In this document: in pieces, positions 32,359-64,000 of the stretch
Layout of the letters: each line of letters starts with the position of its first letter
Position numbering within the stretch: the stretch's first letter is position 1
Origin: Flavicella sediminum
Lineage (GTDB): Bacteria; Bacteroidota; Bacteroidia; Flavobacteriales; Flavobacteriaceae
Reading direction: 5' to 3'
Assembly: GCF_006381105.1 (NCBI RefSeq)
Contig: NZ_VDET01000002.1
Span: 587,223 to 651,222 of the forward strand
Length of the DNA: 64,000 nucleotides
Made by a program: the position numbers and the translations under genes
The notes under the pieces: generated by a model
What the model was told of the DNA's origin: nothing
Database searches by the model: none
What the model saw: only the letters and a program-made list of their open reading frames with translations

Positions 32359-32429
32359 TGACCCATGGTGTAATGGTAGCACTCCGGTTTTTGGTATCGT
32401 CAGTCAAGGTTCGAGTCCTTGTGGGTCAA
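32359..32429 (+). tRNA. tRNA-Gln (anticodon TTG)
   Basis: The 71-nt cloverleaf has acceptor arms TGACCCA/TGGGTCA, a D arm GTGT/GCAC, an anticodon loop TTTTGGT with TTG, and a T arm CAAGG-TTCGAGT-CCTTG. Base pair 27-43 is mismatched. CCA is not encoded. A strong terminator follows. Confidence 0.93.
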
Positions 32430-32443
32430 CAAAAGCAATTTGT

Positions 32444-32478
32444 AAAAAAGCTAATCTTTCTGAGATTAGCTTTTTTTT
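32444..32478 (+). terminator. Terminator of tRNA-Gln
   Basis: The stem AAGCTAATCT/AGATTAGCTT with a 5-nt loop is followed by an 8-T run. Confidence 0.88.
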
Positions 32479-32527
32479 GTTTTACGAAACTCCGCTAACT
32501 TTTTTAAAAAAACTATTTAAAAACAAC

Positions 32528-32559
32528 AAAGAGCTACACTTTCGTGTAACTCTTTGTTT
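32528..32559 (-). terminator. Terminator of tRNA-Asn copy 1
   Basis: The arms AAAGAGCTACAC and GTGTAACTCTTT (one G-U pair) enclose loop TTTC. On the minus strand it is followed by TTGTTGTTTT. A near-identical copy follows the second tRNA-Asn. Confidence 0.75.
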
Positions 32560-32562
32560 TGC

Positions 32563-32636
32563 TCCCCCTCTTGGGCTCGAACCAAGGACCCTCTGATTAA
32601 CAGTCAGATGCTCTAACCAACTGAGCTAAGGAGGAA
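32563..32636 (-). tRNA. tRNA-Asn (anticodon GTT), copy 1
   Basis: The 74-nt cloverleaf read on the minus strand has acceptor TCCTCCT/AGGGGGA, D arm GCTC/GAGC, anticodon stem TCTGA and loop CTGTTAA with GTT, and T arm CTTGG-TTCGAGC-CCAAG. The tRNA body is identical to copy 2 at 42191-42264. Confidence 0.95.
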
Positions 32637-32669
32637 TTTAATCCAGCAAAAATTTTCGTTTTGCGAGTG

Positions 32670-32699
32670 CAAATATAACTATTATTTTAAGTCTTACAA
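32670..32699 (-). promoter_or_regulatory. Promoter of tRNA-Asn copy 1
   Basis: The minus strand reads TTG, 19 nt, TATATTTG, a standard Bacteroidota promoter. It is shared, with few changes, by copy 2. Confidence 0.78.
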
Positions 32700-32868
32700 G
32701 TACAAAAAAACATTTTTTTGTTTTTTTGTACTTAATTAGAATTCTTAAAAACACATACCTCAACCAAATCAAGATTCATCTCAACAATTTCAAGAGCCAA
32801 AACCTCAAGCAACCAACTGATTTTAAAAGGATTTTTATATATCTTCGCTGCAAAATTTCATCCAACTT

Positions 32869-35112
32869 ATGATTTTAAACTTCTTTACTAAATACAATCT
32901 ATTTAAACCATCGACACTTATAATACTACTTCTACTAACAGCTTGTAGTCGGAAAAATTATGACGAGCCCAAGGTTTCTTTAGAAAACTATGAAATTGAA
33001 GAGGGTTTCCAACTAGATGTTATTGCTTCAGAACCTTTTATTGAGGCCCCTGTAGCTATGGACTTTGACAACAAAGGGCGTATATGGACTGTAGAAATGA
33101 AAGGTTATATGCAAAACCTAGAAGGAACTGGAGAAGAAATGCCCAATGGAAGAATTACTATTCTGGAGGACTGGGACAATGATGGCATCACAGATCATAC
33201 GAAAATATTTATGGATGGCTTAGTACTGCCCAGGGCTATTGCTCATGTATATGGAGGTTTACTATATGCCGAACCGCCAAATTTATGGTTTGTAGATATT
33301 GAAAATGACAAACCCATCAATAAAGTATTGGTAGATGCCAACTTTACACATGGAGGAAACGTTGAACACCAACCCAATGGCTTAATGCTGCATTTAGACA
33401 ACTGGATTTACAATGCCAAATCGAGTTCTAGATACCAACGCAAAAACGGAAAATGGCTCAAGGAAAAAACTTCATTTAGAGGACAATGGGGTATTAGTAA
33501 AGATAATTTTGGTAGAATCTATTTTAACAACAACTCCGCCCAACTAAGAGGAGATTTGGTACTTCCTAATACGCATAACAAAAACCAAGCTCAATCACCA
33601 AAGGCTTCTTTAGCAAAATACCTTACTACAGACCAAAGAGTATACCCATTGCACGCCACTGCTGTAAACCGCGGATATGTAAAAGGAAATTTAGACAAAG
33701 ACAGTTTACTAATTCGCATAACTGCTGCCTGTGGACCTGTTATCTACAGAGGAGATCAATTTCCTACTGAATATTCTGAAAACGCATTTGTTTGCGCCCC
33801 TGAAGCCAATTTAATAAAACGAAATATTCTAACTTTTGATACAATAGACATCCATGCGAAACAAGCCATACCTAAAAAGGAATTTATCGCCTCTACAGAT
33901 GAAGGTTTTCGACCTGTAAATTTATTTAACGGACCTGATGGAAACTTGTACATTGTGGATATGCACCGAGGAATTCTTCAAGACAAAGCTTTTTTAACCG
34001 ATTATTTAAAAAACCTTTACGCAAAAAAAGAATTGGACACCATAATTGGCATGGGAAGAATTTTAAAAATATCTAGAAAAAACGCCACTAAAAACAAACC
34101 AATCAACTTAAACAAACTTACTGTTTCAGAATGGCTGAACTTATTAAAACATAAAAACGGCTGGATTAGAGACAAGGCTCAACACATACTCATTTATCGT
34201 TACGAGCAAACGGCTATCCCTATGTTAAAAGAAATGGTTTTCGACACAGAGCACCCAATAACACAACTTCATGCACTGCATACACTAAACGGACTTGATG
34301 CCTTAGATTTTGACTACTTAAACAAAATACTTGAAAAACACACCAATACCAAAACCATTAGCCATACTTTGGTTCTTTTAGAAAAATTCGCATCAAAAAA
34401 TCACTTTCCCACTTTTTTTAATTCTATAAAAAAACTACACGCTAAAAACAACGATCTTATCGATTTATACCTTGCTAATTCTCTAGGAAATTGGGCAAAT
34501 ATCTCTAGCCCACCTATTTTTGATTTTTTAAATGAAATTGCACGAAGACATACTGCCAAAAAAATACACATTGAAGGAATTGTATCCAGCTTAAATAACA
34601 AAGAAAACGAATACTTAAGTCATTTCCAAAACAACAAAAAAGACTCACTTACCGAAGCCTTAAAAGCATGCATCTACAACAAAAAAAATCAAGCGCTCAA
34701 CAACAAAAAGAAAAAAACATCAAAAGCTATTAAAGCTGGACAAAAAATATTTAAAAACATCTGTGCTACCTGCCATGGCGATACAGGTGCAGGAATTGAC
34801 GGATTAGCACCACCGTTCATAAACTCAGAATACGTTAGTGGCTCAGCAGAACGCTTAGGCTTAATTTTACTTCACGGACTTTCAGGTCCATTGCATGTTG
34901 ATGGTAAATTATACGAATTAGGTGCCACCATGCCTGGCTTAGGAAACAATCCAACCTACAAAGACAAAGACATCCAAAATTTAATTTTATACCTACAAAA
35001 CAATTTCGCAGGAAAAACGAGCACGATAAGTATCGAAAAAATCAAATCTCTTAGACAAAGAAAACCTAAATCAGGTGTTTATACAGAAGAAGAATTATTA
35101 AAAATTAATTAA
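32869..35112 (+). CDS. PVC-type heme-binding lipoprotein: beta-propeller plus cytochrome c domain
   Basis: The 747-residue protein has a lipoprotein signal ending LLLLTACSR, so it is anchored in an envelope membrane. The next 390 residues form a sorbosone/glucose dehydrogenase-like beta-propeller (FQLDVIASEPFIEAPVAMDF, DGNLYIVDMHRGILQD). A helical repeat region follows (about 415-600), and then a c-type cytochrome domain with heme motif CATCH (about 632-636) and a Met ligand in TMPGL. This architecture matches the PVC-type heme-binding CxxCH proteins, which probably oxidise a sugar or alcohol and pass electrons on. No electron partner is encoded here. The coding sequence is unusually Lys/Asn-rich. 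Confidence 0.9.
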   Translation: MILNFFTKYNLFKPSTLIILLLLTACSRKNYDEPKVSLENYEIEEGFQLDVIASEPFIEAPVAMDFDNKGRIWTVEMKGYMQNLEGTGEEMPNGRITILEDWDNDGITDHTKIFMDGLVLPRAIAHVYGGLLYAEPPNLWFVDIENDKPINKVLVDANFTHGGNVEHQPNGLMLHLDNWIYNAKSSSRYQRKNGKWLKEKTSFRGQWGISKDNFGRIYFNNNSAQLRGDLVLPNTHNKNQAQSPKASLAKYLTTDQRVYPLHATAVNRGYVKGNLDKDSLLIRITAACGPVIYRGDQFPTEYSENAFVCAPEANLIKRNILTFDTIDIHAKQAIPKKEFIASTDEGFRPVNLFNGPDGNLYIVDMHRGILQDKAFLTDYLKNLYAKKELDTIIGMGRILKISRKNATKNKPINLNKLTVSEWLNLLKHKNGWIRDKAQHILIYRYEQTAIPMLKEMVFDTEHPITQLHALHTLNGLDALDFDYLNKILEKHTNTKTISHTLVLLEKFASKNHFPTFFNSIKKLHAKNNDLIDLYLANSLGNWANISSPPIFDFLNEIARRHTAKKIHIEGIVSSLNNKENEYLSHFQNNKKDSLTEALKACIYNKKNQALNNKKKKTSKAIKAGQKIFKNICATCHGDTGAGIDGLAPPFINSEYVSGSAERLGLILLHGLSGPLHVDGKLYELGATMPGLGNNPTYKDKDIQNLILYLQNNFAGKTSTISIEKIKSLRQRKPKSGVYTEEELLKIN

Positions 35113-35419
35113 CAGGCAAAAAGAATTAAACCCCTTCCCTATTCTAAAAAGGAGTCATTAAATACAGAACATTTCTTTTCATATTAAAATTACAAAACTT
35201 TAACATACATATACTAAAATCCGACTTTTACATTCACAAATTTCAGTATATTTGCACTAAATTCTCAGCCCCTATTATATTTAATTTATTGTTTCCTTAA
35301 ACCCGTTTTAAGAAAACTAAAAATCAGAATGACAACTATCTAGAAAAACCTTTCATGATAGAGAAACTTCTGCTTTTTACAACAAGTATTATTTTGTTTA
35401 ACGCAAAAAATTGTTAGTT
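35113..35419. other. Intergenic region before the large T9SS protein
   Basis: This 307-nt stretch has no ORF. A TATATTTG box at 35247-35254 could drive the next gene with a 5' leader of about 160 nt. Confidence 0.5.
35247..35254 (+). promoter_or_regulatory. Promoter -7 box of the large T9SS protein gene
   Basis: TATATTTG fits TAnnTTTG. No convincing -33 TTG is seen upstream. Confidence 0.45.
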
Positions 35420-38400
35420 ATGTATAGTATTTTAAAATTAACGAAAACATTTGGGGAAATGTTTCGTTCTAACTTCGGTCTAAGAATCATTCTCTTACTA
35501 ATTTCAGGAATAACATCCTTTTCAATACACGCACAGTCTTGCCCTACAGTTCAAAGCAATGGTGTTTTTAACCCTAGTGATGATGTAGTAATTACCTCTT
35601 ACCATCAAAGTATTGCCAGAACGGCTAGTGGCGACTTTGTAGCATGGGGAGAAGACATGGCTGCCACGGGGAGTGACGCTACTTCTCTAACAGTCATAAA
35701 TAGCACCAATGGATATAATTATGGAGGCACGGTCAGACATTTTGCACTCTCAGGAAACACTGATGGACAAGCATTTTTAGCAACCACTACAAGCCTATAT
35801 GCCTGGGGAGGTACAGGAGAAGTTGTAAACACCAATTTTGTAACAGGCTCTGCTTTTGCTGAAATGAAAAACCTACCTTTTACAGGTGCCGAAATAAAAG
35901 ATTTACACGCCAATTCTGATGTGCTTTTTGTAACCTTAAACAGCGGAAAAGTATGGGTAGCTTCATCAAATACAGCTCCCAACGGAAATACGAGTACCGA
36001 TACTAGTATTTGGCAAAAAGTAAAAACAAATGCTACTACAGATTTAACCAACGTAAAACAAGTAACAGGTTCTAAAGTTGGAGGATATGCCTTGCTAAAC
36101 AATGGAGACATATACGCATGGGGTAATCAAGTGTCACTAGGAAATGGTGCTTCTCCTCAAAATTTATCATATGCGACAAAAATGACAGCTCCTCCTGTAT
36201 CTATCAGCTACATTGCAACCATCTTTGATAATGGAGGCGCTTCTGGTTTGCTAGCTTTAGGTACAGATAAAAAAGTATATGGTATTGGTGAAAGTACGAG
36301 TGAACAAATAATAAATTCAGCAACAAGCTCTGTTAACTCTTGGACCGCCATTCAAAAATCAGCAGGTGTAGACTTAACCGGAGTCATTTATCTAGCTACT
36401 TCTCACACCTCAGAAGAATACGCAAGTGCCGCTGTCATTGTAGAAGGAAACGAAGCTTCCAATAATAAAGGTATTTTATATTCTTGGGGAGACAACACCA
36501 GTAGTTACAATGCCATTGCACATGGAACAGATGACTTTATTAGCTACCCAAGCACACCTCCTTCTTTTACAGTAGGCTACGATGACCCTGCAGCAATAAG
36601 TGTTGGTGGCCATGCAATCACCTACTTTAACAGAGCCAATGGTGGTAGTATTTGTTTCGCTGGTCATATAACAAATGGTAGTGAGGGAGGATTAACTACA
36701 GGAGACGGATCTTCATTTGAATGTGTTGTTCCTAACGACATAGAATTATGTGGCATACAACAAACAATCACTGCTAATAATGATGCAGGAACCCACAACC
36801 AAGGTGCTACCGGAACTACTATTATAGACGCTTTAACAAACGATGTATTAAACGGAAACACAAACCCGACAGAAGTTACGGAGGTAACCGTATCACAAAT
36901 AAGCTCTACAAACGCAGGGGTAACTATTAATAGCAATGGTCAGGTTAACGTAACCAATACAGTACCGTTAGGTACTTACACTATCGTTTATGAAATTTGT
37001 GAAGTAGGTATCGATTACTCGAACTGCTCGCAAGCAACTGTTACCATTCAAGTAATTGAAGATGCCGATGGAGATGGATTAATGGACGCTAACGATTTGG
37101 ATGCAGATAATGACGGAATTTTAAACACCGATGAAGGACTTTGTACTCCTACATCTATTAACGGAGATCATGCCTATTCTTCTACTACTGTTTCTGGTAA
37201 TGTTGACAAAGGAGATAAAGCAGCAACTGGCAATGGAGGTGACAAAGCCAAACTAAAAAGTGATGGCGCAAGTATTCGTATTAACTTAAGAAATGGAAAC
37301 GTTATTTATGATGATCTTTTCATTAGCATTAGAGCTCGAAAAAAGGACAACAACAATAACAATAAAATGCAAGTCCAACAAAGCAATTCAACCTCTGGAC
37401 CTTGGACAAACACGCAAGTATTTTCATTTGACGATAAAGACACCTATTACAACAAACAATATCAATTAAACGGAGACGCCAAATACATTTTAATAACTTA
37501 TCTAAGAGAAAAAAAGGATTTAGAAGTTGACAATGTTAGCTATCCAGATTTCACTATCCCTTGTACCAGTACAGATACAGATGGAGATGGCGTACCTAAT
37601 TATTTAGATTTAGACTCAGACAATGATGGCTGTCCGGATGCCATTGAAGCTGCAGTTCCTTCCGCTTTAAAATCAAGCGGAGTAAATGAAACAGATGGTA
37701 TAGCTGATGCTACTGAAAACGCTGTTATTGACACTTCTTACGATGCAATAGGAACCAATGGTTATGCCAACAGCTTGGAAGACGTTGACACAAATGCTGC
37801 AAATACACTGAACACCTATACAACTACAAACTACAACACCTACGCAATAGACAATACAAAAAATGGCTGCGGAACACCTATGATTACGCAAGTTTACTGG
37901 AAAGGATCCGAAAAGATTATAGAAATCACCAATAACAATACCACTAAAATTGTAGTTCCATACGCAGCAAATGTAAATTTCTTTGACGGAGGTATAACAA
38001 CCTCTAGAACAGCAACAGGTGTAAACAACTCAGAAATTGGAGCAGGTAATTCAATCTTGTTTGCTGCCTCATCCGGTTCCATTACCGCTCAAATAAAATC
38101 AGGTGTTTCTACTGTAAACAATGCGGGTGTAACTGCATTCGACAACTCTAATGATATTATTACTGTGTCTAGAAGTGGAAAAGCAAACCATACTATTGCC
38201 TGGGATTCGCGAATAGATGTTATTCAAAATTTAGCAAATAACACCTCTTTTGTCCGTATAGACGAAACTTTAATGCCTAACACAGATTATACCGCTAGTG
38301 AATGGGTAGCTTTTATTAATGACGACTTAGACCCTTACAGAGTATTAAACTTAGGTGGACCTGAAAGACACCCTCATGACCCATTGTTATCCGAAATTAC

Positions 38401-40651
38401 TTCAGGCGTAAATACTGAAGCGAATGCCCTCTTAGGACTCCATCGATTTGGAACAACAACCAGAACAAGTAATAATTGGAACAATGGCTATCCAGACAGA
38501 TCTCGTTTTGTTATTATAGATGAAAACTACAACCATTCTAGCGAAAAATTAAGCGCAAGGAAATTAAAAATAGCAAGCAACAGCATCTTTTCAGTAAGTG
38601 ACCATCTATTAGTAGTAACCAATGATATTACCTTAACAAACACCGATGATCAAATCCGATTAATTGGAACGGCACAGTTGGTACAAACACATACTTCTAA
38701 CACAAAAGTCTCTGGTAGCGGAAAATTACTGGTAGATCAAAATTCGACAATATCTAGCTTATACAGATACAATTATTTGAGTAGTCCAGTGAACACAACT
38801 GGAGAAACAACATACACCATAGAATCAGTATTAAAAGATGGTACAGCTGCCCTAGATGCCACTACACCTATTGGCTCCATAGCCAAAGACATCAATTTTA
38901 TAGCTGGCTATGACGGAGCCACTACCGACCCTATATCTTTAGCAGATTACTGGGTATACACCTACTCACCGTCAGCTGATGGAAGATCTAATTGGCTACA
39001 TAAATACGAAAACGGAACGATCCCACAAACAGATGGATTCATTATGAAGGGTCCTGGAAGAGCACAAAATTACACATTCGCAGGAACTCCAAAGGACGGA
39101 GACTTAAGTTCAAGTCCTCATTTAGGAGCCTATGAATCCTATTTAGTAGGAAACCCTTACCCGTCAGCCATAAGTGTTAAGAAATTCATAGAAGACAATA
39201 TAAACTCAACTTCAGCAACTTTATATTTTTGGCAACATGTAACTCAAAAGGACAGTACCAGCACAAGCAGCTCTGGTCATAATTTCGCAGGCTATATCGG
39301 TGGCTATGCTACCAGAAACATCTCCATGGGTTTATCTGCAAATGACCCTACAAACGTAAGCGCTTTTGATATTTCTCTAGAAGCCGAAGACGCTTTTATA
39401 GATGGCTCTACAACTAACAACGGTGGAGAAACTGCAGTAGCAATTTCTGGATTTACAAACTATGTAGAATTCCGTAATATTATTAAAGGAGTTGATGCTT
39501 TAAAAATAAATTACAAATCCGATTCAAGTAAGAAATTCATTCTTAAAATAGACAATGTTAGCAAAGGAGAATTTACCCTACAACCAAGCTCCTCAACTTA
39601 CCTAACTCACACTATTGACATTTGTGTTCAAGCGGGAAGCGACGTAACGCTAATATCCAACGACGCAAACACAGCCTATATAAATCTTTTACAACTAGCG
39701 GATGACGATGGAAATATTAGCTGCGTACCAAGTGCCGGAGGTTCTGATGCAAATTTAGTTCCGGGTCCTTATATTCCTATTGGACAAGGCTTCTTTATTC
39801 AAGGAGATGCAGATGGCGGACCAATCGTATTTAACAATAGTCAAAGAGAATTTAAAATTGAAGAATCTGGCACATCTGTATTTTTTAAAGGCTCAAAAAA
39901 ATCTACATCAAAAACAGCTGCAAAGGTTTCAAGCTCTGAGTACGCATTGCCTTTTGTTAAACTGGGTATGGACTTTTTAAATGAAGAAGCAACAAGTATT
40001 CATAGACGTGTAGGCGTATCATTTCACCCAGGTAACTCTTTTGCTTTTGACAAAGGTTACGACAGTCAAGTGTACGATTTAGGACTTACTGATGTTTATT
40101 GGAATTTACCAAATGACGACACTAAATACATCATTGCAGGTGTACAGGAAATCTCACCCGACTTAGAAGTTCCGTTTGACATTGTTATGAATTACGACGG
40201 AAGTGTAGCCATACAAATAGATGAAATAGATTATATAGATAGCGATGTGTTTATCAAAGATAAGCTTACAAACAAAACATATCCGCTAGATGAAAACACC
40301 GTAGCCCTTCAATTAACAAAAGGAACACATACCGATAGATTTGCTTTAACTTTTAGTGGCACCGAATTATCCATACATGAGGAAGAAAACAATTCAATCA
40401 ATAAAGATTTCATCGCTTTTACAGATAGATCAACGCGAGAAATTGTTATACAAAATCATGGTCAACAAAAAATACGAGCTATAGAATTACTTTCTATACT
40501 AGGACAAAAAGTGCTGCAATGGGAAAGTTTTGATTCTAAAACAATAGAACATCGACTCGCAACAAAGAATTTACCTAGTGCAGTTTACATAGTACATATT
40601 CATACTAACAAAGGCCGAATATCTAAAAAAATAATTGTCAAAACAGAATAA
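35420..40651 (+). CDS. Large multidomain secreted protein with T9SS sorting domain
   Basis: The 1743-residue protein is exported by a signal peptide ending FSIHAQS and carries a C-terminal type A T9SS sorting domain (from about 1660: IELLSILGQKVLQW, LPSAVYIVHIHTNKG). Between them lie RCC1-like propeller repeats (about 55-380; repeated WG motifs such as FVAWGED, LYAWGGT, IYAWGNQ and LYSWGDN), an Ig-like segment, and thrombospondin type 3 calcium repeats (DADGDGLMDANDLDADNDG near 547 and DTDGDGVPNYLDLDSDNDG near 718). A lamin-tail-like domain lies near 820-970 and a lectin-like beta-sandwich near 1325-1440. It is probably an adhesin or surface-scaffold protein. I use the ATG at 35420 rather than a TTG three codons upstream. 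Confidence 0.9.
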   Translation: MYSILKLTKTFGEMFRSNFGLRIILLLISGITSFSIHAQSCPTVQSNGVFNPSDDVVITSYHQSIARTASGDFVAWGEDMAATGSDATSLTVINSTNGYNYGGTVRHFALSGNTDGQAFLATTTSLYAWGGTGEVVNTNFVTGSAFAEMKNLPFTGAEIKDLHANSDVLFVTLNSGKVWVASSNTAPNGNTSTDTSIWQKVKTNATTDLTNVKQVTGSKVGGYALLNNGDIYAWGNQVSLGNGASPQNLSYATKMTAPPVSISYIATIFDNGGASGLLALGTDKKVYGIGESTSEQIINSATSSVNSWTAIQKSAGVDLTGVIYLATSHTSEEYASAAVIVEGNEASNNKGILYSWGDNTSSYNAIAHGTDDFISYPSTPPSFTVGYDDPAAISVGGHAITYFNRANGGSICFAGHITNGSEGGLTTGDGSSFECVVPNDIELCGIQQTITANNDAGTHNQGATGTTIIDALTNDVLNGNTNPTEVTEVTVSQISSTNAGVTINSNGQVNVTNTVPLGTYTIVYEICEVGIDYSNCSQATVTIQVIEDADGDGLMDANDLDADNDGILNTDEGLCTPTSINGDHAYSSTTVSGNVDKGDKAATGNGGDKAKLKSDGASIRINLRNGNVIYDDLFISIRARKKDNNNNNKMQVQQSNSTSGPWTNTQVFSFDDKDTYYNKQYQLNGDAKYILITYLREKKDLEVDNVSYPDFTIPCTSTDTDGDGVPNYLDLDSDNDGCPDAIEAAVPSALKSSGVNETDGIADATENAVIDTSYDAIGTNGYANSLEDVDTNAANTLNTYTTTNYNTYAIDNTKNGCGTPMITQVYWKGSEKIIEITNNNTTKIVVPYAANVNFFDGGITTSRTATGVNNSEIGAGNSILFAASSGSITAQIKSGVSTVNNAGVTAFDNSNDIITVSRSGKANHTIAWDSRIDVIQNLANNTSFVRIDETLMPNTDYTASEWVAFINDDLDPYRVLNLGGPERHPHDPLLSEITSGVNTEANALLGLHRFGTTTRTSNNWNNGYPDRSRFVIIDENYNHSSEKLSARKLKIASNSIFSVSDHLLVVTNDITLTNTDDQIRLIGTAQLVQTHTSNTKVSGSGKLLVDQNSTISSLYRYNYLSSPVNTTGETTYTIESVLKDGTAALDATTPIGSIAKDINFIAGYDGATTDPISLADYWVYTYSPSADGRSNWLHKYENGTIPQTDGFIMKGPGRAQNYTFAGTPKDGDLSSSPHLGAYESYLVGNPYPSAISVKKFIEDNINSTSATLYFWQHVTQKDSTSTSSSGHNFAGYIGGYATRNISMGLSANDPTNVSAFDISLEAEDAFIDGSTTNNGGETAVAISGFTNYVEFRNIIKGVDALKINYKSDSSKKFILKIDNVSKGEFTLQPSSSTYLTHTIDICVQAGSDVTLISNDANTAYINLLQLADDDGNISCVPSAGGSDANLVPGPYIPIGQGFFIQGDADGGPIVFNNSQREFKIEESGTSVFFKGSKKSTSKTAAKVSSSEYALPFVKLGMDFLNEEATSIHRRVGVSFHPGNSFAFDKGYDSQVYDLGLTDVYWNLPNDDTKYIIAGVQEISPDLEVPFDIVMNYDGSVAIQIDEIDYIDSDVFIKDKLTNKTYPLDENTVALQLTKGTHTDRFALTFSGTELSIHEEENNSINKDFIAFTDRSTREIVIQNHGQQKIRAIELLSILGQKVLQWESFDSKTIEHRLATKNLPSAVYIVHIHTNKGRISKKIIVKTE

Positions 40652-40654
40652 CAA

Positions 40655-40690
40655 CAAAAAAGCCTTAATCTAAAAATTAAGGCTTTTTTC
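40655..40690. terminator. Bidirectional terminator
   Basis: The stem AAGCCTTAAT/ATTAAGGCTT is flanked by A and T runs. It ends the large T9SS gene (+) and the GH88/105 gene (-). Confidence 0.9.
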
Positions 40691-40708
40691 TCAAATAGAT
40701 TCTTGTAT

Positions 40709-41815
40709 TTACTTAGCATACAATTTTAGCAATTCTGACCCTGCGCATAAAAAAGCACCGGTACCATACACTTCAGTTTTATCTTCCCAAGCTTGTCCTG
40801 GAGCAGCTCCGATTGGCTGCACATAGCCTAGCATTCCTTCAGAAGTTATATACCCCGTTAAAGCAGTCCATGCTTTTTGAACAGCAGGTTCATAAGAATC
40901 ACGATCCAAAATTTCATTATTTATTCCCCAAGCCAAACCATAGGTAAAAAAGGAAGTACCACTTGTTTCTGGTGTCGGGTAAAATTCATCTCCTAACAAA
41001 CTCATGGCCCAATGTCCTTTTTCTGATTGAATTTTCAAAAGCTTCTTAGCCATCTTCTTGTAAATCTTCAAAAAGTATTTGTACTCTTTCTGTTTTGGAT
41101 CTAATTCATTTAAAATATTCACCAAACCTGCAAACACCCAACCATTACCACGTGACCAAAATATTTTAGTCCCATGATCTAGCTGATTTTCAAATCGTTC
41201 ATCTCTATAATACAAACACTCTTTCCTATCAAAAAGAAAATCTGTCGTGGCTTTGTATTCCGAAACCATAAAATCTAGATAAACTTGTTTTCCGGTAATT
41301 TTATACATTTGAGCAAAAACTGGAGGAGACATAAACAAAGCATCACACCAATTCCATCTATCTTGATGAAATGGCGTTTTCCAATTTAATTTACTTTGCG
41401 AGGGATGGTAGATGATGAAATCTAATTGTTTTTGAGTAGACTTGAGCATCTCTTTATCTCCATATTTACGAAACAACTGACAATACAACTGACCAATCGT
41501 ATGATCATCTGCATGGTATTTTCTAAAGTGTAAGTTCCATTGCTGCTCCTCTCCAATTCCTTTTAACCATTCGTAATATTTTTCATCACCTGCAATAGCT
41601 GCCCATTTTTCCATTCCTACATACAAAGCACCATTGGTCCAATCCGCAATATGATGTGGCTTTTTCCTACCACTATAATTCTCCTTAAAATTTTCTATTT
41701 GCCAATCAGCAACACGTTTCATTTCATTTTTAACCTGTTCTGGTTTTATAGCTTGTGCACAAACAACAGCAGGCATCCAAATTAGCGCAAAGACTAACAA
41801 CAACTTTCTTTTCAT
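40709..41815 (-). CDS. Secreted glycoside hydrolase of the GH88/GH105 type
   Basis: The 368-residue protein has a signal peptide ending AVVCAQA and an alpha6/alpha6 barrel of the unsaturated glucuronyl/rhamnogalacturonyl hydrolase (YteR-like) family. Characteristic stretches are ADDHTIGQLYCQLF (catalytic-type Asp), HQDRWNWCDALFMSPPVF, FWSRGNGWVFAGL and TSGTSFFTYGLAWGIN. Such enzymes hydrate the unsaturated uronic acid left at chain ends by polysaccharide lyases. No lyase, SusCD pair or sugar kinase is near, so it is not part of a visible PUL. The operon position is single-gene with its own promoter. Confidence 0.9.
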   Translation of the reverse strand: MKRKLLLVFALIWMPAVVCAQAIKPEQVKNEMKRVADWQIENFKENYSGRKKPHHIADWTNGALYVGMEKWAAIAGDEKYYEWLKGIGEEQQWNLHFRKYHADDHTIGQLYCQLFRKYGDKEMLKSTQKQLDFIIYHPSQSKLNWKTPFHQDRWNWCDALFMSPPVFAQMYKITGKQVYLDFMVSEYKATTDFLFDRKECLYYRDERFENQLDHGTKIFWSRGNGWVFAGLVNILNELDPKQKEYKYFLKIYKKMAKKLLKIQSEKGHWAMSLLGDEFYPTPETSGTSFFTYGLAWGINNEILDRDSYEPAVQKAWTALTGYITSEGMLGYVQPIGAAPGQAWEDKTEVYGTGAFLCAGSELLKLYAK

Positions 41816-41839
41816 ATTTTTCTTTTTTTATAATTTGAC

Positions 41840-41847
41840 CAAATATA
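41840..41847 (-). promoter_or_regulatory. Promoter -7 box of the GH88/105 gene
   Basis: Minus-strand TATATTTG lies 24 nt upstream of the ATG. Confidence 0.6.
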
Positions 41848-41967
41848 AAAGAAAATATTTGCAAACACCATTAGATGCGGAGCTTACGAAAACGTCTAGC
41901 AGTTATCTGTTTATTAGGAAACGATATATGTGCAACCCTTTCTACAACCGAAACAAGTAAAAGGACA

Positions 41968-42006
41968 GAAAAAAAAACGTCCTAAAGAAAATTTACTTTA
42001 AGACGC
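41968..42006 (-). terminator. Terminator of tRNA-Ala
   Basis: Minus-strand GTCTTAAAG and CTTTAGGAC pair (one G-U) around an 8-nt loop and are followed by a 9-T run. Confidence 0.75.
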
Positions 42007-42018
42007 TTATATTTAATG

Positions 42019-42092
42019 TGGAGAAGATGGGAGTCGAACCCACGACCTCTTGACTGCCAGTCAAACGCTCTAGCCAGCTGAGCTACATCCCC
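42019..42092 (-). tRNA. tRNA-Ala (anticodon GGC)
   Basis: The 74-nt cloverleaf on the minus strand has acceptor GGGGATG/CTTCTCC with the G3-U70 alanine identity pair, D arm GCTC/GAGC, anticodon loop CTGGCAG (GGC) and T loop TTCGACT. Acceptor pair 6-67 is a T-T mismatch. CCA is not encoded. Confidence 0.93.
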
Positions 42093-42155
42093 GAAAGATG
42101 TGGCTAATATAATAAAGTTTTGTTGTACGACTTCTAAAAAAACAATCCAAAACAA

Positions 42156-42186
42156 AAAAGAGCTACACTTCCGTGTAACTCTTTGT
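42156..42186 (-). terminator. Terminator of tRNA-Asn copy 2
   Basis: AAAGAGCTACAC and GTGTAACTCTTT enclose loop TTCC. It is nearly identical to the terminator of copy 1. Confidence 0.75.
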
Positions 42187-42190
42187 TTTG

Positions 42191-42264
42191 CTCCCCCTCT
42201 TGGGCTCGAACCAAGGACCCTCTGATTAACAGTCAGATGCTCTAACCAACTGAGCTAAGGAGGA
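42191..42264 (-). tRNA. tRNA-Asn (anticodon GTT), copy 2
   Basis: The body is identical to the copy at 32563-32636: acceptor TCCTCCT/AGGGGGA, anticodon loop CTGTTAA, T loop TTCGAGC. Promoter and terminator are also duplicated. Confidence 0.95.
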
Positions 42265-62355: not shown

Positions 62356-63099
62356 ATGGCAAGTTTCACAAAATGGTTAGGTGCTGGCTTAGGATGGTCT
62401 TTTGGCGGTCCAATTGGTGCTTTACTAGGTTTTGTTGTAGGAAATGTAATTGATGGCTTTACCAAAAAAGACATTCAAGATTTTAGACAACAGGCAAACA
62501 ATCATTCCAACAATACACATTCTGGAGATTTTGAAATCAGTTTATTGATTTTGTCCTCCTTTGTCATCAAAGCAGATGGTAAAATAGATCAAAGAGAACT
62601 GGATTTTGTCCGTGCCTACTTTGTAAAAATGTACGGCAAAGACAGAGCCAACCATGCCTTTAAATTATTTAAAGGAATCATGCAAAACAAAGATACCTCT
62701 GTACGTCAAGTTTCTTTACAAATCAGACAGCAAATGCAGCACGCCTCACGCTTGCAATTAATGCATTATTTATTTGCATTGGCCAAGGCCGATGAAATTG
62801 TAACACCGGATGAATTGGACATGCTTCAAAAAATAGCTGGCTACCTAAGCATCAATATCCATGATTTTGAATCTATCAAAGCCATGTTTTACAAAGATTC
62901 CGAAAGTGCTTATAAAATTTTAGAAATTGAAAAATCAGCCACCGATCAAGAACTAAAAGCTGCCTATAGAAAAATGGTCAAAAAACACCATCCCGATAAA
63001 GTAAAACATTTAGGAGATGAACATGTAAAAGGCGCTGAAGAAAAATTCTTAAAAATTCAAGAGGCCTATGAACAAATTAAAAAAGAACGAAGTCTCTAA
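62356..63099 (+). CDS. TerB-like and DnaJ domain protein (DjlA type)
   Basis: The 247-residue protein starts with a glycine-rich hydrophobic segment (GAGLGWSFGGPIGALLGFVVG) that may anchor it, then a TerB-like helical domain (about 55-165, with FVIKADGKIDQREL and ALAKADEIVTPDEL). A J domain is at the C-terminus (about 180-245, with HPDKV). This is the architecture of DjlA-type co-chaperones, which stimulate DnaK at the membrane. It is preceded by a gap of 275 nt and followed by the small-RNA-like array. Confidence 0.93.
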   Translation: MASFTKWLGAGLGWSFGGPIGALLGFVVGNVIDGFTKKDIQDFRQQANNHSNNTHSGDFEISLLILSSFVIKADGKIDQRELDFVRAYFVKMYGKDRANHAFKLFKGIMQNKDTSVRQVSLQIRQQMQHASRLQLMHYLFALAKADEIVTPDELDMLQKIAGYLSINIHDFESIKAMFYKDSESAYKILEIEKSATDQELKAAYRKMVKKHHPDKVKHLGDEHVKGAEEKFLKIQEAYEQIKKERSL

Positions 63100-63225
63100 G
63101 TAATTAGCTCTTCAAAGAGGACGAATAACTTAAACGCCAAATGCATTTTGAAAGCACATTCATGTTATTCAACGAACTAAAGCAACACTTCAGCTAAAAT
63201 TGTAGCAAACAACTTTTCTATACAT
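63100..63225. other. Region between the DnaJ gene and the tandem array
   Basis: I see no gene here; the repeat proper begins at about 63226. Confidence 0.4.
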
Positions 63226-63233
63226 TATCTTTG
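63226..63233 (+). promoter_or_regulatory. Promoter -7 box of array unit 1
   Basis: TATCTTTG matches TAnnTTTG; a TTG about 23 nt upstream could be the -33 element. Confidence 0.55.
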
Positions 63234-63235
63234 AA

Positions 63236-63310
63236 GTGTAATAGTTTAGCTATTACAACTTTTTCATAGCAATTTTCCTCCTTTAGTTTTCGAATTAAAG
63301 GAGGTTTTTT
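63236..63310 (+). ncRNA. Candidate small RNA, unit 1
   Basis: A transcript starting just after the -7 box would be about 75 nt: a hairpin GTAATAG-5 nt-CTATTAC (63238-63256), a single-stranded linker (ACTTTTTCATAGCAATTTT) and an intrinsic terminator CCTCCTTTA/TAAAGGAGG (63277-63304) followed by six T. No ORF of note overlaps it. It is the first of four units. Confidence 0.65.
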
Positions 63311-63477
63311 ATTTGCAATACAGCCCTACTTTTGCCAAATCAAAATACAACACCAAATTAGAAGCTCAATTTAGTTACTTCACTGCTCACACAAACCAGT
63401 CGCAGAGAAAAACACACTCATCGACTGACACAAACCACCAGTCATCGAAAAGCTTGCAAAGCAACACCACTATACAC

Positions 63478-63485
63478 TATCTTTG
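63478..63485 (+). promoter_or_regulatory. Promoter -7 box of array unit 2
   Basis: TATCTTTG with TTG 21 nt upstream, in the order and spacing of the Bacteroidota promoter. Confidence 0.55.
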
Positions 63486-63487
63486 AA

Positions 63488-63561
63488 GTGTAATAGTTCA
63501 TCTATTACATCTTTTTCATAGCAATTTTCCTCCTTTAGTTTTCGAATTAAAGGAGGTTTTT
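63488..63561 (+). ncRNA. Candidate small RNA, unit 2
   Basis: It has the same hairpin (GTAATAG/CTATTAC, loop TTCAT instead of TTTAG) and the same terminator CCTCCTTTA/TAAAGGAGG followed by five T. The loop change with a fixed stem suggests that the stem is under selection. Confidence 0.65.
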
Positions 63562-63729
63562 ATGTGCAATACAGCCCTATTTTTACGTAACCAACTTAAT
63601 AACTCCAAATTAGAAGCTCACTTTAGTTACTTCACTGCTCACACAAACCAGTTACAGAGAAAAATACACCACTCAACACACGCAAACCGTCAGTCGTCGA
63701 AAATCTTTTAAAACAAGTCAACTATAATG

Positions 63730-63737
63730 TATCTTAG
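63730..63737 (+). promoter_or_regulatory. Promoter -7 box of array unit 3 (altered)
   Basis: The box is TATCTTAG, one change from consensus in the TTTG part, so this unit may be weaker. Confidence 0.4.
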
Positions 63738-63739
63738 AA

Positions 63740-63814
63740 GTGTAATAGTTCATCTATTACAACTTTTTCATAGCAATTTTCCTCCTTTAGTTCTCGAATT
63801 AAAGGAGGTTTTTT
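63740..63814 (+). ncRNA. Candidate small RNA, unit 3
   Basis: The hairpin GTAATAG/CTATTAC and the terminator CCTCCTTTA/TAAAGGAGG are intact; the terminator loop differs by one base (TTCTCGA versus TTTTCGA) and six T follow. Confidence 0.6.
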
Positions 63815-63982
63815 ATTTGCAACACAGCCTTACTTATACGTAACCAACTTAATAACTCCATATTAGAAGCTCTAATTGGTCACTACACTGCTCACATAAA
63901 CCAATCACAGAGAAAAACACACTCATCGACTGACACAAACCTCCTGTCATCGAAAAGCTTGTAAAACAACACTACTATTCAC

Positions 63983-63990
63983 TATCTTTG
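63983..63990 (+). promoter_or_regulatory. Promoter -7 box of array unit 4
   Basis: TATCTTTG with TTG 21 nt upstream; the unit continues past the window. Confidence 0.5.
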
Positions 63991-63992
63991 AA

Positions 63993-64000
63993 GTGTAATA
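63993..64000 (+). ncRNA. Candidate small RNA, unit 4 (partial)
   Basis: Only GTGTAATA is seen before the window ends, identical to the start of the other units. Confidence 0.4.

Follow-up and report, generated by a model that had tools for sequence, protein, structure and literature searches.

The question raised by this locus is what a tandem repeat at the end of a stretch of Flavicella sediminum DNA encodes: small-RNA genes, transcription terminators or nothing at all. In the window, i.e. the whole stretch of 64,000 nucleotides that was analysed, TRF calls one array (63218-64000, period 252, 3.1 copies, 85% matches). Boxes of the form TATCTT(T/A)G follow each other in it at distances of 252, 252 and 253 bases, in good agreement with the unit of about 252 bp in the original prediction, and a fifth box lies 253 bases past the fourth, outside the window. 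The window contains three complete units and the start of unit 4. As had been expected, the array continues beyond 64000. It has five units in the genome assembly, a number that is as given by the assembly, and the last unit ends directly before mutS. Runs of N (84 and 70 bases) replace the cores of units 4 and 5 and are probably assembly gaps. The last base of the window directly abuts the first of these runs. The coordinates are collected in Table 1.

Table 1. Features of the tandem array and its upstream neighbour (window numbering)
Feature	Position	Strand	Basis
TerB + DnaJ domain protein, 247 aa, DjlA-like, upstream neighbour of the array	62356..63099	+	Pfam TerB 1.1e-18, DnaJ 8.8e-16
Unit 1 box TATCTTTG, -7 box of sigma-A type	63226..63233	+	sequence; TAnnTTTG consensus (excerpts of PMC9723704)
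Unit 1 predicted sRNA, ~73 nt: hairpin, linker, terminator, T run	63238..63310	+	R1 60.3 bits, R2 68.9 bits
Unit 1 hairpin 1: 7-bp stem, TTTAG loop	63238..63256	+	sequence, covariation
Unit 1 single-stranded linker, predicted seed AACTTTTTCATAGCAATTTT	63257..63276	+	sequence, related copies
Unit 1 terminator hairpin and T run	63277..63310	+	sequence, covariation
Unit 2 box TATCTTTG	63478..63485	+	sequence
Unit 2 predicted sRNA	63490..63562	+	R1 60.5 bits, R2 69.9 bits
Unit 3 box TATCTTAG, one change	63730..63737	+	sequence
Unit 3 predicted sRNA	63742..63814	+	R1 60.6 bits, R2 69 bits
Unit 4 box and first bases of hairpin 1; remaining core N, past the window	63983..64000	+	sequence
N run in unit 4 core, starting inside hairpin 1	64001-64084 (L007 1724-1807)		
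N run in unit 5 core, starting inside hairpin 1	64254-64323 (L007 1977-2046)		

The anatomy of the units had been read correctly from the letters. Units 1 to 3 all consist of a box, a 7-bp stem closed by a TTTAG or TTCAT loop, a fixed linker, and a 9-bp terminator stem with a T run. The pattern TAnnTTTG, the sigma-A consensus of Flavobacterium psychrophilum (excerpts of PMC9723704), is exact in the boxes of units 1 and 2, whereas the box of unit 3 (TATCTTAG, compared with TATCTTTG) has one change. The genes flanking the array encode a DjlA-like co-chaperone, which matches the NCBIfam DjlA model with 3.2e-30 and 105.6 bits, under its cut-off of 162, and MutS; the suggestion of a linked RNA-binding protein or toxin found no support in these neighbours. 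Elsewhere in the window, four tRNA genes (Gln, Asn, Ala, Asn) lie at 32359-42264.

The core is identical at 81 of 85 positions in all three pairwise comparisons of units 1-3 (95%). The core had been described as far better kept than the spacer. This holds for the core, but the spacer is also fairly similar (133/168, 141/168 and 132/168, or 79-84%), as is expected from recent amplification. Spacers of this similarity would suit a plain satellite, amplified by slippage and without further function, as would the interval between the DjlA-like gene and mutS, which holds a single copy in a related species (G003) and five in this genome. The decisive evidence that the array is more than a satellite is that the core recurs without the spacer at other places and in other genomes. 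These include genomes throughout the family as well as viral contigs, and the core shows compensatory changes. The satellite reading is extremely improbable. It is refuted for the core, although it may still describe the origin of the extra copies.

The conserved linker of the core is UUUUUCAUAGCAA, positioned between the hairpin and the terminator. Elsewhere in this genome and in the other five Flavicella genomes, a 20-base piece of the core is found again, either unchanged or with a single change. All 17 copies used have this piece between a hairpin of differing sequence and a terminator. The 19-base linker is present exactly in all six Flavicella genomes, at 1 to 4 places per genome. A covariance model, R1, was built from 11 members, with the array's own tandem units left out, and was then iterated to give R2. 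R1 matches 172 of the 249 Flavobacteriaceae genomes at E 0.01, and R2 with laxer filters found the RNA also in eight of eleven genomes that R1 had missed. All 30 R1 loci that were fetched contain TTTTTCATAGCAA; the weaker matches of other genomes were only partly read. Run over 395 genomes of the phylum at E 0.001, with stricter filters that miss weak copies, R2 matched 22 genomes, every one of them in Flavobacteriaceae. A scan of named genomes gave at least 116 stretches, mainly in Tenacibaculum, Polaribacter, Lutibacter, Aureibaculum, Flavicella and Lutimonas among the matches listed. The constancy of the linker is partly due to ascertainment, because the models and patterns were built on it. 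One weak match (G000:C14:84583) lacks the usual structure and was not counted as a copy.

The check for covariation came out in favour of a structured RNA element. In a 56-member alignment, 98.6% of the cells are paired, two-sided changes occur in 14 of 15 base pairs, and there are 207 two-sided cells compared to a shuffle mean of 45, figures that lean towards the proposed structure because the guided alignment was fitted to it. A measure free of alignment gives a similar picture for hairpin 1: in 51 of the 56 members, no more than 2 of 100 mononucleotide shuffles reach the stability of its region. When RNAalifold was given an unguided MAFFT alignment of 20 members, the terminator was the only structure recovered, since hairpin 1 lies at a variable distance from the seed; the evidence for hairpin 1 comes from the per-sequence folds and the guided alignment. 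Among the named-genome matches listed there are 134 copies. The hairpin-1 region outperforms 48 or more of 50 shuffles in 127 of these and the terminator region in all 134; a TAnnTTTG box is present in 93. A structured, conserved RNA element almost certainly exists. Tandem small-RNA genes are the best reading, supported by the sigma-A type boxes, the two covarying hairpins, the terminator and the family-wide spread. An anti-Shine-Dalgarno role for CCTCCTTT in the array's own terminator was dropped because most other members have CCCACTC or similar there.

Where the RNA was found, genomes carry 1 to 9 copies. The genome under study (77 contigs) has nine: five in the array (two of them with N cores), one before rnpB on contig C6, one on C76 and two on C8. 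A dnaJ-type motif lies no more than 1,650 bases upstream in 57 of the 77 distinct copies with enough upstream sequence (three further copies, with too little, were left out), and 19 of these 57 also precede rnpB. For the named-genome matches listed, the corresponding counts are 64/122 for dnaJ and 51/122 for rnpB, with 16 left out at edges. The displayed single-copy loci (25 after one of 26 was removed by a position filter) are all flanked on the left by a DnaJ reading frame. The distance from the dnaJ stop codon to the seed is 55-147 nt in 24 of them and 229 nt in one. The position downstream of dnaJ is likely to be the ancestral site. One copy in this genome shows the gene order grpE, dnaJ, RNA, rnpB; further copies follow lysS or a cold-shock-domain gene, or lie between the DjlA-like gene and mutS.

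In other genera, too, copies occur in tandem, at distances of 134-487 bases. A four-copy array in another genus (locus L080, G037 C1 570930-572026), with spacings of 263, 281 and 487 bases, adjoins what appears by eye to be the end of an outer-membrane barrel gene. Tenacibaculum sp. MAR_2009_124 has four copies about 2 kb apart (locus L220, positions about 740, 3191, 5202 and 7063), which sit in a degenerate repeat region that has few long reading frames and contains remnants of a repeated small gene.

The placement of the copies bears on a second alternative, in which the units are merely strong intrinsic terminators with an accessory hairpin, insulating after dnaJ and before rnpB or mutS and having no function in trans. 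Many copies do lie between genes of the same strand, the terminator region stands out in each of the 134 copies among the matches listed, and the gap between dnaJ and the RNA contains no other terminator-like site in 21 of the 25 displayed loci. The remaining four, however, already have a separate terminator after dnaJ. Neither a conserved unpaired linker nor a promoter box of its own is needed by a terminator, and five tandem copies are not needed for stopping transcription. We regard this alternative as very unlikely.

The neighbourhood of dnaJ also suggests possible regulation. In F. psychrophilum, grpE-dnaJ belongs to a sigma-54 group tied to protein quality control and envelope stress (excerpts of PMC9723704). 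A TGGCA-N6-TTGC site is present upstream of grpE in genome G135, and a version with one change was found here by eye; no such site was found upstream of grpE in G550. A sigma-54 link of the dnaJ-associated RNA is no more than suggested by these motifs.

The 18-base core is present in 23 viral contigs. R2 matches 17 of these at E 1.1e-4 or better and four at E 0.003-0.02, and two give no match. Both C8 copies of the present genome are probably prophage copies because their flanking reading frames are the same as those in one viral contig. Four viral contigs (L276, L282, L284 and L297) have a common type of hairpin between phage reading frames, GGTAGT..GGAGGGTTAAAACTACC, which in L297 is GGCAGG..CTGTC. 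In the first three the flanking phage frames are on the same strand, so that the terminator is inside a gene cluster.

Rfam scans of the window, the array and related loci gave no sRNA family above threshold; anti-hemB and other weak sub-threshold listings (at most 24.3 bits, compared to 49.5) were taken as chance. The Flavo-1 motif (RF01705), which is likewise flavobacterial and had been named as a candidate, was rejected: it was listed neither in the array (E up to 10) nor in any of 29 related loci (E limit 0.5 or 1). GibS (RF04182) of Bacteroides shares the R1 seed of FopS, but has a second seed, there called R2, and another promoter motif (excerpts of PMC11697453); no GibS match was listed for the array or related loci in the Rfam scans.

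FopS (RF04319) itself, an sRNA family of Bacteroidaceae, requires a closer comparison. According to excerpts of PMC11697453, the FopS RNAs of Bacteroides, a genus without the classical sRNA chaperones of Pseudomonadota, pair with the susC start region and repress it, and associate with the RRM protein RbpB. Their seed, whose consensus starts with GTGTTTTTCATAG, is a single-stranded 5' stretch with no hairpin ahead of it (excerpts of PMC11697453). Like the element described here, they are short multicopy RNAs with a sigma-A type promoter, a terminator and copies in viral contigs. The FopS R1' seed and the present linker have a ten-base seed core, UUUUUCAUAG, in common, and pairing with the start codon of outer-membrane receptor genes is shown for FopS (excerpts of PMC11697453) and predicted here. 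The two RNAs differ in other respects. Only the first ten bases of the R1' seed, TTTTTCATAGTATTAGATTTAAGG, are common; these are followed by CAATTTT here and by TATTAGA in FopS, so that the sequence beyond CAUAG is different. A hairpin precedes the seed here (51/56 members, and 127/134 copies among the named-genome matches listed), and the linkage to dnaJ and the tandem array are found in the present element. With the E limits given for Flavo-1, the Rfam FopS model had no listing for the array or the 29 related loci, whereas in a control it was listed for all six FopS-seed loci given, two of them above threshold. Conversely, R2 reached at most 14.1 bits (E 3) on any FopS locus, the comparison covering 16 of 23. 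A search of this genome at E 0.001 found no RRM_1 (RbpB-type) protein, although the control search found one in Bacteroides ihuae, and no Hfq protein at the same threshold. Membership in FopS was rejected on the covariance model, the architecture, the extended seed and the RbpB partner.

Other systems were compared by description only. The Rfp sRNAs of F. psychrophilum, of which Rfp18 affects metalloprotease mRNAs (excerpts of PMC9723704), are also flavobacterial, and the element may be one of them. LhrC1-7 and Qrr are, like the array, sets of several near-identical sRNA genes, but they have other hosts and targets (excerpts of PMC11697453). No earlier description of the family was identified in the open-licence PMC literature. 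As far as the searches go, the array belongs to a predicted small-RNA family that is new with respect to that literature, though it may be among the Rfp RNAs.

CpxQ and MicL are stress sRNAs that originate at the 3' ends of mRNAs, reduce envelope proteins and depend on Hfq in enterobacteria. The present RNA resembles them in following a chaperone gene and in its predicted pairing with envelope-protein mRNAs. It is unlike them in that Hfq was not found, its own promoter box is usually present, and dnaJ has a terminator of its own in 4/25 loci. A CpxQ-like origin at the 3' end of a chaperone mRNA may be considered; the position fits many loci, but not all.

The linker is mostly unpaired in predicted folds. 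It is antisense to CUAUGAAAAA, which combines a start codon with codons for Lys, and its complement, AAAAUUGCUAUGAAAAAGA, resembles a start region with the Lys codons that signal peptides typically have. Among predicted targets in Flavicella, conservation is best for the start of a TonB-dependent receptor gene, which in this genome encodes 925 residues with a CarboxypepD_reg domain and is followed by a gene for a DUF5689 lipoprotein-like protein. The start is predicted to pair with the linker in all six genomes of the genus (-16.9 to -21.6 kcal/mol) despite differing N-termini; in G005 the paired start is the second of three candidate ATGs. Outside the genus, the orthologue starts of G135 and G185 give -19.1 and -14.6 kcal/mol. 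None of 200 shuffled seeds paired as strongly in any of these eight genomes. The site was not seen in 21 of the 29 orthologues read (21 of the 23 outside the genus), 18 of which carry the RNA; in one of the 21 the start is unreadable, and another reaches -14.5, but with an internal ATG.

A target scan of this genome covered 605 predicted genes from 864 kb. By leftmost ATG, the receptor start ranks second (-17.6 kcal/mol), only two of the 605 reaching -16, and it has the longest register-locked match, 15 bases. When all early ATGs are allowed, six of the 605 starts reach -16. For shared start pairing, the receptor comes first among the 122 reciprocal-best pairs of genes that link this genome with G005. 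Second, and nearly tied (-17.5/-22.1 compared to -17.6/-20.3), is an internal ATG of recA; it was rejected as a target, as it is not a start and no regulation is expected. The next real start after the receptor is that of a secreted protein (-13.6/-17.2).

The genome-wide picture is less distinct. At a duplex energy of -14 kcal/mol or below, the seed finds 9 of 605 starts and shuffled seeds a mean of 5.05 (maximum 13), which is not clearly better. Taking every early ATG, the counts are 18/605 (mean 10.4, maximum 20) and 29/947 (mean 20.75, maximum 37), again without a clear difference. Internal ATG windows outscore the starts at -14 kcal/mol (25/566). A seed that is not clearly above shuffled seeds is a result against a broad regulon. 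A register-locked test, made post hoc, gave p 0.008 to 0.07. Starts that match at least ten bases of the seed are enriched for signal-peptide-like proteins, as judged with a crude home-made predictor (22/35 compared to 221/604, odds ratio 3.1, p 0.0017); in a second genome the same enrichment is 32/58 compared to 266/938 (odds ratio 3.4, p 1.4e-5). This enrichment, which is not significant at 11 bases or more, is partly built in by construction because a Lys-Lys start is common to such proteins.

The conserved 3' end of the linker, AAUUUU, lies mostly beyond the reach of the receptor pairing, and its conservation there makes a protein-binding role possible. The linker might then be mainly the site of an RNA-binding protein and the array a multicopy protein sponge of the CsrB type, the antisense match to starts being secondary. 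Conservation of the whole linker, AAUUUU included, is consistent with such a sponge, and tandem amplification would give more dosage. Neither an RRM_1 nor an Hfq protein was found in the genome, however, these being the two families searched for, and the linker contains the FopS seed decamer, with its best conserved match centred on a start codon. A sponge role of the array is conceivable, though the linker points to start-codon pairing, and we consider the sponge unlikely as the main explanation.

The best reading, made from sequence, is a new family of base-pairing sRNAs that would be similar to FopS in its working but not a member of it, amplified fivefold in this genome. For each complete copy, a small RNA of about 73 nt is the predicted transcript. 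It would be made from the copy's own promoter, and in many species the dnaJ mRNA may carry it as a tail as well. The unpaired linker would base-pair around the start codons of mRNAs that encode exported or surface proteins, and the pairing would block translation initiation, as FopS does in Bacteroides. Judging from the predicted duplexes and the analogy with FopS, trans-acting repression at start codons by the linker is somewhat favoured. The fivefold amplification would result in a higher dosage in this species.

A more specific proposal can be made, which is tentative and has the balance against it. The dnaJ-associated RNA of Flavobacteriaceae, with a seed reading AUG-AAA-AAG, the codons at the beginning of signal peptides, might lower exported proteins as a class under folding strain. 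The Bacteroides FopS seed would then be of independent origin, phages would carry copies, and in the present species the dosage would have been raised fivefold.

To our knowledge, few small RNAs of this phylum are understood. The family described here is widespread in Flavobacteriaceae, recurring in marine flavobacteria, and its preferred place in the genome is next to a chaperone gene. The pairing core that it has in common with FopS is that of a multicopy family of this phylum with a studied mechanism. If the proposed function is true, start-codon antisense control of outer-membrane receptors would have arisen at least twice in the phylum, and would operate in one branch without an RbpB-type protein. 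What phages gain from the RNA is a question prompted by its copies in viral contigs, and the natural fivefold array lends itself to a direct dosage experiment.
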